Below, one piece after another: positions 29,404 to 39,438 of a stretch of DNA of 64,000 nt. The translations under genes were made by a program, and so were the position numbers. The notes under the pieces are model-generated. The model had not been told where the DNA came from and made no database searches. It worked only from the letters and a program-made list of their open reading frames with translations. The stretch's first letter is position 1. The number at the start of each line of letters is the position of its first letter. Source of the stretch: Brachyspira alvinipulli ATCC 51933 (lineage in GTDB: Bacteria; Spirochaetota; Brachyspiria; Brachyspirales; Brachyspiraceae); contig NZ_KI912407.1 in NCBI RefSeq assembly GCF_000518245.1, positions 122,949 to 186,948 of the forward strand, read 5' to 3'.

Positions 29404-30834
29404 ATGAAAAAGTTATTATCTATAACTATTATATCTTTTTTTATTTTTCTAATTTCATGTTCTCAAAAATCTGATAATACAGATGCTGCTGTTTCTAAAG
29501 GTACTGTAACAAATATATCCATTGAAGAAGCAGAAAAACTTTTGGGAAATACAAACTATACTTTTATAGATGTAAGGCAGGAATCAGAATATATAGGTTG
29601 GAAAATAAATTCGTCTGAAGGCGGACATATAGAAGGAGCTTATGATTTCACAGCAGACTGGTTTGATATGTTAGCATCAGATAAAGAAATTTTAACAGAA
29701 TTGGGAAGAAAAAAATTATATCCTCCTATGAATTTAATTATTTATGATACAAAAGAAGTTGATACTAACACTGCTCAAAAATTTGCTAATTTAGGATTTA
29801 ATGTAATGACTCTTGACGGCGGAATAGATGCTTGGTTAGAAAAAACAAAAAGACCATTAGAAAAAATGCCTAATTATGAAATATTAGTTTATCCTAAATG
29901 GGTTTATGATTTAACACAAGGAAATAATCCTGATATACCTAAAAATAAAAAATTTGTTATAGTGGAACTAAGTTACAGCGATATGGAAGCAGATTATGAG
30001 AAAGGTCATATACCTGGTGCTGTTCATGTTGATAGTAAAGTCATAGATGTATCAGGACCTCAAAATTTAGAAGAATATGAATTTCTTACTTTAGAAGAAA
30101 AGGCTAAATTCTTCAGAAGACCGGATGATGCTAGTATAGAGAAAACTTTATTGAGTCTTGGTATAGATAAAGATACTTTAGTTATAGTATACGGACCTAA
30201 ACCTTATGCTAATACAAGATATGCTCTTATTATGAAATATGCAGGTGTTGAAGATGTAAGAGTATTAAATGGAGGAATTAAAAGATATAAAGCGGATAAT
30301 CTGCCTTTAGAATCCGGAAAGGTAACACCTACTCCAGTAGCAAGTTTCGGAGTAAAAGTACCTGCAAATCCTCATTGGATAATAGACTTGGAAGAAGAAA
30401 AACAGCTTATTAATGATACAAATGCCGTTATAGCATCTGTAAGAAGCTGGCCTGAATATTTAGGAGAGGTAAGCGGATATACATTTATAGGCGAAGCTAA
30501 TGATATACCTAATTCAAGATTTGCTTATGCAGGTTCTAATCCTTATAATTTATTAGACTACAGAAACCCAGATGAAACTATGTTTAACTATCAAATAATA
30601 GAAGACAGATGGATATTATGGGGAATAACACCTGATAAAAGAATATCATTCCATTGCGGAACCGGATGGAGAGCAAGCGAAACTTTATTCTATGCTTTGG
30701 CTTTGGGATGGACTAATGTAACATTATATGACGGTGGATGGTATGAATGGCATTTATATGAGGATCTTCCTAGAAAAGAAAAAGGAGTTCCTAAAGATGC
30801 GCCTGAAACTCCTGTATTTCATTATACTTGGTAA
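29404..30834 (+). CDS. Lipoprotein with three rhodanese-like domains
   Basis: 476 residues with lipobox LISC (Cys19). Three rhodanese-fold units follow. The first (about 35-160) has FIDVRQESEYIG and HIEGAY but no catalytic Cys in its loop (IIYDTKEV). The second (about 175-310) has HIPGAVHVD and again no Cys (VIVYGPKPY). The third (about 325-460) has the active loop FHCGTGWRAS with Cys418. So only the C-terminal unit can form a persulfide. The enzyme probably transfers sulfur from thiosulfate or a related donor outside the cytoplasm. It is followed at ten bases by a membrane-protein gene. Confidence 0.88.
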   Translation: MKKLLSITIISFFIFLISCSQKSDNTDAAVSKGTVTNISIEEAEKLLGNTNYTFIDVRQESEYIGWKINSSEGGHIEGAYDFTADWFDMLASDKEILTELGRKKLYPPMNLIIYDTKEVDTNTAQKFANLGFNVMTLDGGIDAWLEKTKRPLEKMPNYEILVYPKWVYDLTQGNNPDIPKNKKFVIVELSYSDMEADYEKGHIPGAVHVDSKVIDVSGPQNLEEYEFLTLEEKAKFFRRPDDASIEKTLLSLGIDKDTLVIVYGPKPYANTRYALIMKYAGVEDVRVLNGGIKRYKADNLPLESGKVTPTPVASFGVKVPANPHWIIDLEEEKQLINDTNAVIASVRSWPEYLGEVSGYTFIGEANDIPNSRFAYAGSNPYNLLDYRNPDETMFNYQIIEDRWILWGITPDKRISFHCGTGWRASETLFYALALGWTNVTLYDGGWYEWHLYEDLPRKEKGVPKDAPETPVFHYTW

Positions 30835-32661: not shown

Positions 32662-33423
32662 ATGAAATTATTTGTTAGCGATTATGATATGACTATATAC
32701 ATACATGAAAAAATAGATGATAGTGTATTTGATGCCGTAAAAAAATGGAGAGAGGCAGGAAATATATTTGCTATTGCCACTGGAAGAAACAAATTTTCTA
32801 TATTTGAACATATTGACAGGCATGGATTGGAATTTGATTATTTGATAGCTAATAATGGAGCTTTAGTTTTTAATGGAAAAAGAGAGACAATATTTAAAGA
32901 TACTATTGATGATGATATTTCTTATGATGTTATAAAGTTTCTGCATGATGCTTTTGAAGGTACTGTAGAAATTGCAAATGATGAATATATTATATCTGTA
33001 AAATCTAAAGACGGTAAAGATATACTTCCTTTCAGAGTTGATAAAAAAATAAATATTAATGAAATATATAATATAAAAAATATCATACAGATAAATAAAA
33101 TGGCTGCTGATTCTAAATCCACAGAAGAAGTAGCAAATGCTGTAAATAATAAATTTAATAAAGTTATAGCATATCCAAATATTAGAACAGTTGATATAGT
33201 AAAAAACAGTGTAAATAAAGCCAATGGTATTAAATTCTTAGAAAACATTATCAAAAAAAATAATAATATAGATAAGATTTTAGTAACCGGCGATTCAAAT
33301 AATGATATAGAAATGATTAAGCAATATAACGGCTACGTTCAGATAAATGCGAAAGAAAATGTTAAATCTATAACAAATAAATATTTTAATATTATATCTG
33401 ATATTATTTATAAAGAATTATAA
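32662..33423 (+). CDS. HAD-superfamily (Cof-type) phosphatase
   Basis: 253 residues. Motif I is VSDYDMTIY (Asp7 nucleophile, Asp9), motif II is ATGRN, and motif IV is GDSNNDIEM; a Cof-type cap lies between. These enzymes dephosphorylate sugar phosphates or nucleotide cofactors such as FMN or PLP, and the substrate cannot be told from sequence alone. A GAAG-type ribosome site precedes the ATG. Confidence 0.88.
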   Translation: MKLFVSDYDMTIYIHEKIDDSVFDAVKKWREAGNIFAIATGRNKFSIFEHIDRHGLEFDYLIANNGALVFNGKRETIFKDTIDDDISYDVIKFLHDAFEGTVEIANDEYIISVKSKDGKDILPFRVDKKININEIYNIKNIIQINKMAADSKSTEEVANAVNNKFNKVIAYPNIRTVDIVKNSVNKANGIKFLENIIKKNNNIDKILVTGDSNNDIEMIKQYNGYVQINAKENVKSITNKYFNIISDIIYKEL

Positions 33424-33432
33424 AATACACTA

Positions 33433-33461
33433 TTGATTTAAATACCCTATCAAGGTATAAT
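33433..33461 (+). promoter_or_regulatory. Promoter of the UGA-containing mini-gene
   Basis: TTGATT (33433-33438), exactly 17 bases, TATAAT (33456-33461). It starts just after the stop codon of the HAD gene and is placed to transcribe only the tiny gene at 33487. Confidence 0.7.
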
Positions 33462-33486
33462 AAAATAAAAACATATAGAGGTATTT

Positions 33487-33570
33487 ATGTGAGGAATTGC
33501 ATGCATAATCGGTCTGATTATAGCTGGAATAGTTAGTCTAATTGATAGATTTAAAGGAAAAAAAGAATAG
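33487..33570 (+). CDS. 27-codon single-span membrane protein with in-frame UGA at codon 2 (candidate selenoprotein)
   Basis: An AGAGG site five bases before ATG is followed by TGA as codon 2. Then comes GIACIIGLIIAGIVSL, a clear transmembrane helix, and IDRFKGKKE, a basic cytoplasmic end, before TAG. The unit has its own promoter and terminator, so only the UGA prevents normal translation. Hairpin 33505-33521, 12 bases after the UGA, fits bacterial SECIS rules, so UGA may encode selenocysteine. The alternative is a nonsense mutation of TGG, TGT or TGC, making it a pseudogene. The cellular role is unknown. Confidence 0.6.
33505..33521 (+). promoter_or_regulatory. SECIS-like hairpin within the mini-gene
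   Basis: Perfect 6-bp stem ATAATC / GATTAT closing the 5-base loop GGTCT, extendable by GC/GC across one bulge. The apical loop begins 18 bases after the TGA. Bacterial SECIS elements need 16-37 bases and a G in the first two loop positions. The GGUCU loop also occurs in the E. coli fdhF element. Confidence 0.5.
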
Positions 33571-33602
33571 CCCTGCATTATTAAAATGCAATAATACAGG
33601 GC
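33570..33602. terminator. Bidirectional terminator after the mini-gene
   Basis: A 13-bp stem with one mismatch (GCCCTGCATTATT against AATAATACAGGGC) and a 7-base loop. It overlaps the last base of the mini-gene stop and lies 24 bases from the convergent amidohydrolase stop. Confidence 0.9.
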
Positions 33603-33625: not shown

Positions 33626-35344
33626 TTATGCTGCTTGATAAACTAATTTTCCGTCTATATAAGTTTTTAATACTTTAGTCTTAGTAATATCTGTAGGAGC
33701 TATTTCAAGAATATTTTGATCTAATATTATAAAATCTGCTTTTTTTCCTACTTTTATAGAACCTAAAGTATCTTCAGCAAAATTCTGATAAGCACCATTT
33801 ATTGTAGCAGAGTCCATCATCTGTTCAACACTTACTATTTGGTCAGCACCAAGTAATGAATCAAGCTCACCTTCTAAATTCATTCTAGTAGCACCAATCT
33901 GTATACCATCTAAAGGTCTAGGAGGAACTGTTACAGGATAATCGCTTGCAAGTGATACAACACAGCCTGCATCAAATAAATCCTTCATAGGATATTCATG
34001 CTCTGCTCTCTCTCCTAAATAAGGAAGCTCTAATTCATAATAGTATCCGTCTTCTTTGAAGAACCAATAAGGATTAGCAACTGCAACTATATTTAATTCT
34101 CCCATTCTTTTTATATCATCTTTATTAACTACTTGTAAATGTGTTATAGCATGTCTTTTGTTAGTAGCACCAGTTGTTTTTTGAACATGCTCAAGAGCAT
34201 TAATAGATAATCTTGCTGCTGCATCTCCTATAGAATGTATATGTATTTGAAGTCCTAACTCTTCAGCTTTCAAACATATTTCATTCATAGCATCCTGCTC
34301 CCAAAGTCCTACACTTCTAAATCCAGGATCAGAAGTATAATCTTCAAGCATGTATGCTGTTTTTCCTTCTACTACACCGTCTGCAAATAATTTTACAGTT
34401 GTAAGTTTAAATTTATTTCCATTAGCTTGTTTTTTCAAATCAGCTATTACATTTAAATTTGATATAGGATCATTCTCTGCAAGAACTTGGAATCCTGAAA
34501 AATAAGTTAATTTTAAATCGCCGCTTTTATCAAGTTCATTTAAAGCAGAAAATAAATTTTTTCCGTCTGTATTCATATTTAACAAAGGATTGAATATAGA
34601 TGTAACTCCATAAGATAGAGCTTCATCCTGATATGCTAATATACCACTTTTATATTCTTCAACAGAATAATCCGGTAATTTAGTTAATATTAAATCCTGA
34701 GCCTTTTCTCTGAATGTTCCTGTAGGCTCTTTAGTAACTGGGTCTCTTTCTATTACTCCACCTTCAACATCTGGAGTATTAGCATCAACTCCTGCAATTT
34801 CCATAGCTTTAGAATTTACCCAAATAGAATGATAATCCTGAGATGTTAATACTATAGGAATTTCTGTAGAAATTCTATCAAGTACATCTTTAGTAGGACC
34901 ATTCTTAGGAGTATATCCATTGCCCCATCCGGAACCTCTCAATATTTTCAAACCTTCATGCTCAGCAACAAAGTTTGAAACTATTGTCTCATAATCTTTC
35001 ATTGACTTTCCGTCATATAATTCTACTTGGTATAATTTACCTATACCGCCTAACTCAGCATGTGCATGAGCTTCAAAAAAACTAGGCATCGCCATACCGC
35101 TTTCTAAATTAATTACTTCGGTATTATCACCTATAAACTCTTTTACTCCTTCTTCATCTCCAACATATTGATATACACCATCTTTAATAGCAACAGCAGA
35201 CACCATTTTATTATCCGCCTCAGAAGTGTATATTGTACCGGTTATCACAGTATCTGCATATTTACTTCCGGCACCATTACCGCAACCAATAATAATAAAA
35301 GAGAAAATTAGTAAAATGATTGGTAATAACGTTTTTTTGTTCAC
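33626..35344 (-). CDS. Exported amidohydrolase lipoprotein (YtcJ/Amidohydro_3 type)
   Basis: 572 residues with lipobox IIIGC (Cys21). The metal-dependent hydrolase fold is indicated by FFEAHAHAELGG (the HxH-type motif), HIHSIGDAA, HAITHLQVV and LASDYPV. The C-terminal beta domain has GSIKVGKKADFIILDQN, typical of the superfamily. The YtcJ group hydrolyses amide or imide bonds of small molecules, but the substrate is unknown. Export as a lipoprotein is less usual and suggests a scavenging role at the cell surface. Confidence 0.88.
   Translation of the reverse strand: MNKKTLLPIILLIFSFIIIGCGNGAGSKYADTVITGTIYTSEADNKMVSAVAIKDGVYQYVGDEEGVKEFIGDNTEVINLESGMAMPSFFEAHAHAELGGIGKLYQVELYDGKSMKDYETIVSNFVAEHEGLKILRGSGWGNGYTPKNGPTKDVLDRISTEIPIVLTSQDYHSIWVNSKAMEIAGVDANTPDVEGGVIERDPVTKEPTGTFREKAQDLILTKLPDYSVEEYKSGILAYQDEALSYGVTSIFNPLLNMNTDGKNLFSALNELDKSGDLKLTYFSGFQVLAENDPISNLNVIADLKKQANGNKFKLTTVKLFADGVVEGKTAYMLEDYTSDPGFRSVGLWEQDAMNEICLKAEELGLQIHIHSIGDAAARLSINALEHVQKTTGATNKRHAITHLQVVNKDDIKRMGELNIVAVANPYWFFKEDGYYYELELPYLGERAEHEYPMKDLFDAGCVVSLASDYPVTVPPRPLDGIQIGATRMNLEGELDSLLGADQIVSVEQMMDSATINGAYQNFAEDTLGSIKVGKKADFIILDQNILEIAPTDITKTKVLKTYIDGKLVYQAA

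Positions 35345-37923: not shown

Positions 37924-39438
<1,515 letters not shown>

Follow-up and report, generated by a model that had tools for sequence, protein, structure and literature searches.

A 27-codon gene with UGA as its second codon: a probable membrane selenoprotein family confined to Brachyspira

The 64-kb stretch of Brachyspira DNA analysed here (the window) contains a stand-alone gene of 27 codons that very probably encodes a selenoprotein, with UGA at codon 2 read as selenocysteine (Sec); insertion of Sec in vivo is what we infer from sequence comparison. This reading rests on the conservation of the UGA, the evolution of the frame that follows it, a SECIS hairpin, the exchange of the stem of that hairpin in a divergent homologue (G019), the joint loss of the UGA frame and the hairpin in decayed copies, and the Sec machinery of the genus. 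We also consider it probable that this is the smallest known selenoprotein encoded by a single gene, with Sec at residue 2, and that it represents a genus-specific membrane family lacking a Cys counterpart, from a class of micro-selenoproteins invisible to annotation and to TGA/Cys searches.

The gene and its surroundings

The 27-codon ORF (Table 1) is the only candidate in the window that combines a ribosome-binding site, a start codon, TGA and a further 20 codons. Its product reads M-Sec-G-I-A-C-I-I-G-L-I-I-A-G-I-V-S-L-I-D-R-F-K-G-K-K-E in full. The original prediction gave the gene a promoter, ribosome-binding site, ATG and terminator of its own, and the first three were found as described. 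The promoter is also conserved in relatives whose upstream genes differ, while promoter-like sites are not enriched in the 2-kb region (15, against 15.2 in shuffles of this AT-rich DNA). The Shine-Dalgarno sequence lies 12-14 nt from the ATG in L017/L019-type sequences. The terminator, by comparison, does not belong to this gene alone: the hairpin is real and common to both convergent genes. It was scored on the minus strand in the scan, and the U-run on the plus strand is weak in the window and strong in several relatives (L004-L008).

The promoter spacer carries a dyad (ATACC-N7-GGTAT, 33442-33458) that recurs as ATAC-N8-GTAT in most relatives and of which no further copy was found in the window. 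It may be an operator, in which case the gene would be regulated.

Table 1. Features of the 27-codon gene and its neighbours in the window
Feature	Coordinates	Strand	Remarks
ORF, 27 codons	33487..33570	+	M-Sec-GIACIIGLIIAGIVSLIDRFKGKKE; ATG 33487-33489, TGA, 25 sense codons, stop TAG ending at 33570; 17 intact species orthologues, frame-specific protein-like evolution
In-frame UGA, codon 2, putatively read as selenocysteine	33490..33492	+	Present without exception in the intact orthologues and also in the divergent homologue of G019
Sigma-70-type promoter TTGATT-17-TATAAT	33433..33461	+	Kept in most relatives
Shine-Dalgarno GAGG	33478..33481	+	GGAG, 5-7 nt before ATG, in most relatives
SECIS hairpin AUAAUC[GGUCU]GAUUAU	33505..33521 (loop 33511-33515)	+	Starts 12 nt, and loop 18 nt, after UGA
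Terminator-type inverted repeat	33570..33602	.	Between ORF and convergent amidohydrolase gene
HAD (Cof-type) hydrolase, upstream neighbour	32662..33423	+	Pfam PF08282; not next to the ORF in several relatives
Amidohydrolase family 3 lipoprotein-like gene, convergent downstream neighbour	33626..35344	-	Pfam PF07969; absent from some orthologous loci

The usual locus of the gene is the HAD-hydrolase/amidohydrolase/yraN-like/prmC region, with variable neighbours on both sides, and the copy in genome G013 is located elsewhere, adjoining a sugar operon. As far as we can see, the HAD hydrolase is not functionally linked to the gene, and no partner gene was apparent in the neighbourhood across the orthologous loci. 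Elsewhere in the window, positions 29404-30834 (+ strand) encode a lipoprotein-like protein of 476 aa that contains three stretches of rhodanese domain, and the spurious-looking ORFs at about 37931-38122 (e.g. ...LAVRLTTSGKTNSDGVTGGVYNPRERIHRS) are of the kind that overlaps rRNA genes and may point to one near 38 kb.

Conservation of the UGA codon

DNA similar to the region is present in 21 of 26 Brachyspira species genomes. The 27-codon ORF is intact in 17 of the 26, with 14 distinct sequences, all of which begin ATG-TGA-GGA and encode Cys at codon 6; the UGA predicted at codon 2 is thus kept in every intact copy. A longer, divergent homologue in an 18th species genome (G019) also starts with ATG-TGA. 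Neither Cys nor Trp occurs at codon 2 in any of the 17 intact orthologues or in G019. The prediction had named Trp at this position, together with a hairpin that is not conserved, as the mark of a nonsense mutation; the relatives, searched for TGA, TGC, TGT and TGG, carry TGA only, and their hairpin is conserved.

The same codon-2 pattern was scanned across 84,980 species genomes (GTDB), where the family proved to be confined to Brachyspira and to TGA; the matches in other genera lack the shared C-terminus and look like chance. A profile search of 296 Spirochaetota genomes returned no convincing family member outside Brachyspira. No homologue with Cys at the Sec position was found in either set; such homologues are usual for selenoproteins, although not required. 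In IMG/VR, one viral sequence starting with Cys was matched that had no further similarity, and a second pattern gave none. Likewise, no diverged copy was detected in the no-match genomes G001, G002, G012 and G021 or in genera of the same family, at the prmC/aroC loci where these were found.

Copies that have degenerated are also informative. In three genomes (G003, G011 and G015; loci L018, L021 and L022), the copy is disrupted both in its UGA reading frame and in its hairpin. In G018 (L009, 1556), an in-frame deletion of 12 nt has removed Cys6 and left the hairpin 6 nt from the UGA, and this copy is probably non-functional; the deletion amounts to a natural test of the SECIS spacing rule. 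About a third of the species lack the gene or have a decayed copy, yet all of them still possess the Sec machinery; the gene is therefore dispensable.

Protein-like evolution after the UGA

In the UGA frame (frame 0), no stop interrupts codons 3-27 in any of the 14 distinct sequences, and 43% of the codon differences are synonymous. The differing codons have a mean BLOSUM62 score of +2.75, compared with -0.39 in column shuffles, and none of 300 shuffles reached the observed value. Of the other two forward frames, one has 83 stops and the other 35; an antisense frame is likewise free of stops but scores far lower than frame 0. By these measures, the region downstream of the UGA is evolving as protein-coding sequence in the UGA frame. 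A conserved in-frame UGA followed by coding conservation, as expected of a bacterial selenoprotein gene, was found here.

These data bear directly on the explanation that the UGA is a true stop, either closing an AUG-UGA two-codon ORF or arising by mutation, with the downstream conservation owed to a regulatory or small RNA that contains the hairpin. UGA does serve as an ordinary stop codon here, ending 6 of the 45 long ORFs in the window, and the hairpin is nearly invariant, as an RNA element might be. Outside the hairpin, however, the sequence changes as coding sequence does, and only in the UGA frame: the end codon is conserved at position 28, replacements are conservative and even the 12-nt deletion in L009 is in frame. 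Since the gene has kept its own promoter and the next gene is usually convergent, it is best described as a stand-alone gene and not as a leader. We regard a true stop as very improbable.

The SECIS hairpin

The six-pair stem and GGUCU loop were confirmed at the predicted distances from the UGA. According to published rules, a bSECIS has a loop of 3-9 nt with a G in its first two positions, a distance of 16-37 nt, a stem of 4-16 bp and an MFE <= -7.5 (PMC13188914). The hairpin of the window agrees with these rules, as had been claimed for its spacing and loop G: its stem is 6 bp, its loop GGUCU, its distance 18 nt and its free energy -8.6 kcal/mol. The parallel drawn with Escherichia coli fdhF also held, as in the SECIS of that gene, too, the apical loop is GGUCU and its distance from the UGA exactly 18 nt. 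The fdhF stem is longer and GC-rich, and its gene encodes a large enzyme with Sec at codon 140. No SECIS family, nor any other meaningful match, was returned by an Rfam scan of the region.

Taken singly, the hairpin is not unusually stable (z -0.8 to -1.8), 9% of the synonymous recodings of a single sequence reach its stem length, and in L017/L019-type sequences the MFE fold of the single strand is not the SECIS hairpin, so that the case for it rests on comparison. Within the stem, Ile8 is encoded by ATC in 17/17 orthologues and Leu10 by CTG in 16/17, while across four neighbouring genes in these genomes the two codons make up 2.6% of Ile (ATC) and 0.8% of Leu (CTG) codons. None of the 51 invariant Ile columns in those genes is composed of ATC throughout. 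Changes within the six-pair hairpin are restricted to loop positions 3 (U to G) and 4 (C to U) and to the first base of the outermost codon, and the two loop Gs are invariant in all orthologues. The stem is kept constant by codons that are very rare elsewhere; on this comparative evidence, selection acts on the hairpin as RNA.

A divergent homologue with a different stem

The G019 homologue (L086), located between prmC and aroC, reads SD-ATG-TGA-GTA-GGG-TGT... and would yield the product MUVGCIFGIAAGLVALVDKIKENKQRKLEEENSEVTEDSIIEDIDENIN. Its hairpin, UGCUGCU[GGUCU]AGUGGCA, has a wholly different stem and the same GGUCU loop, 27 nt after the UGA. Spacing and loop agree with the bSECIS rules, and the MFE of -7.2 falls slightly outside the limit of -7.5. 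As in the window, the hairpin alone is not significant, and the 57-nt stretch from the UGA to the hairpin folds no better than shuffles. In 5000 synonymous recodings of either sequence (the window ORF or G019), a six-pair hairpin with a GGUCU loop never appeared. We consider G019 the strongest single argument for a selenoprotein, because a SECIS replaced under selection by SelB should look like this, with its loop retained and its stem unrelated.

The Sec machinery and other selenoproteins of Brachyspira

The absence of Sec machinery would have counted against the original prediction, but selA, selB and selC are present and contiguous in the genome of the window. Both selA and tRNA-Sec were found in 26/26 Brachyspira genomes, although in the incomplete G021 selA is partial and the tRNA match lies below threshold, and SelD has been reported in B. 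hampsonii (PMC5330540). As the machinery is universal, no correlation exists between loss of the gene and loss of the machinery.

Decoding of the UGA by other means, namely near-cognate readthrough by tRNA-Trp, is very improbable. Low-level readthrough of UGA by Trp-tRNA is common, and a gene of this size would permit it. Yet no homologue has TGG at this position, a SECIS of the same geometry as those of grdB and fdhF has been kept, G019 has a version of its own, and the genome encodes tRNA-Sec and SelB.

The genus already has recognised selenoproteins against which the 27-codon gene can be compared. The glycine reductase genes GrdA and GrdB of the window's genome each carry an in-frame TGA, and share with the new gene the genus, the machinery and, in grdB, a SECIS with a GG(U/A/C) loop 18 nt after the UGA (GGU in the window's genome). 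They differ in being large soluble enzyme subunits with internal Sec and in being absent from half of the genus, where the 27-codon gene is often present. Indeed, grdB is missing from 13/26 genomes, all of which have kept selA and tRNA-Sec, which implies that the machinery is maintained there by other selenoproteins.

The Sec.1 and Sec.2 thioredoxin-like selenoproteins (PF13192) are likewise genus-wide in Brachyspira and missed by annotation, but have a thioredoxin fold and Cys homologues (PMC5330540). The Brachyspira copies were described as one with Cys and two with Sec (PMC5330540), whereas G000 has three adjacent PF13192 genes (G000:C5:210962-212084; L099 positions 980, 1435 and 1881), each with an in-frame TGA near its start. 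The study in question, made in 2017 on B. hampsonii 30446, extended annotated genes and required TGA/Cys pairs (PMC5330540). That strain carries the 27-codon gene (L040), which the screen could not find because the gene has no Cys homologues and only annotated genes were extended.

Predicted properties of the peptide

A strongly hydrophobic segment, residues 2-19 (mean about 2.8 Kyte-Doolittle), precedes the motif DKxKGxKE; the family pattern is MU(G)(I)xCxIGLII...DKxKGxKE, with a conserved positive C-terminus. Hydropathy and the charged end predict a single membrane helix oriented N-out/C-in. The C-terminus would stay inside, and the N-terminus with Sec2 would lie at or beyond the outer face of the membrane. 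On a helical wheel, Sec2, Cys6, Gly9, Ala13, Ser17 and Asp20 share one face (80-160 degrees). A selenenylsulfide between Sec2 and Cys6 (i, i+4) is possible, as is the binding of a metal or of a partner protein by this pair, and the small residues lining this face would suit it to contact with another membrane helix. Methionine aminopeptidase removes Met before a small second residue, which would here expose Sec as residue 1.

The likeliest role of the peptide is that of a small accessory protein serving a membrane complex in redox reactions or metal handling, although we put this at somewhat short of an even chance. It resembles CydX and MgtS, small accessory proteins of about 30 residues with a single membrane helix, but these have no Sec/Cys pair, and the peptide has no family match. 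No family in Pfam, NCBIfam or PHROGs was above threshold. A 170-185-aa Brachyspira protein gave weak profile matches (L103, L104, L105 and L107) and was set aside, since only its N-terminal membrane anchor is similar; this anchor (MSELLIYLIIAVIWGIVSLIQK...), found genus-wide, resembles the helix of the peptide, probably in composition only.

It is also conceivable, although unlikely, that the selenoprotein is mainly regulatory or toxin-like, that is, a small hydrophobic peptide made only when Sec-tRNA is available and acting as a selenium-gated membrane signal or in the manner of a type I toxin. Its very small size, single hydrophobic helix, monocistronic gene, promoter with a dyad and dispensability across the genus would fit, as would a weak resemblance to the phenol-soluble modulin helix. 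That resemblance (phenol-soluble modulin alpha, 15.6 bits against a cut-off of 30) is sub-threshold, however, and no toxin family was matched in Pfam or PHROGs. Moreover, no antitoxin or antisense gene is evident, and a pure selenium gate would have no need of the conserved Cys6 and Sec/Cys helix face.

Novelty and implications

The gene represents a new family of a known kind, unusual in its 27 codons, its Sec at residue 2 and its want of a Cys counterpart, and would rank among the smallest known selenoprotein genes. The methanogen VhuU-type selenopeptide (listed in PMC13188914 under MvhA/VhuA/VhuU) is also a very short Sec polypeptide. It differs in being archaeal, in relying on a 3'-UTR SECIS and in forming the C-terminal piece of a NiFe hydrogenase, and no sequence relation between the two is known. 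The suggestion that such a selenoprotein would be novel or easily missed stands: no sequence or motif match was found among the 119 prokaryotic families of a 2026 selenoproteome review (PMC13188914, Table 1), nor any very small or N-terminal-Sec bacterial selenoprotein in the open-access literature searched. Catalogues depend largely on annotated genes or Cys homologues, which is how the gene escaped even the TGA-ORF screen of B. hampsonii 30446, and other micro-selenoproteins may be missed for the same reason.

In the mechanism that we propose, the SECIS hairpin would recruit SelB and Sec-tRNA-Sec, and the UGA at codon 2 would thereby be decoded as Sec in the first elongation step after initiation. 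If this is correct, Sec can be inserted directly after initiation, and SelB must act on an initiation complex while the SECIS is positioned at the mRNA entrance. Selenoproteins would then extend into the size range of bacterial micro-proteins, and about ten Brachyspira species that lack grdB would gain a further selenoprotein.
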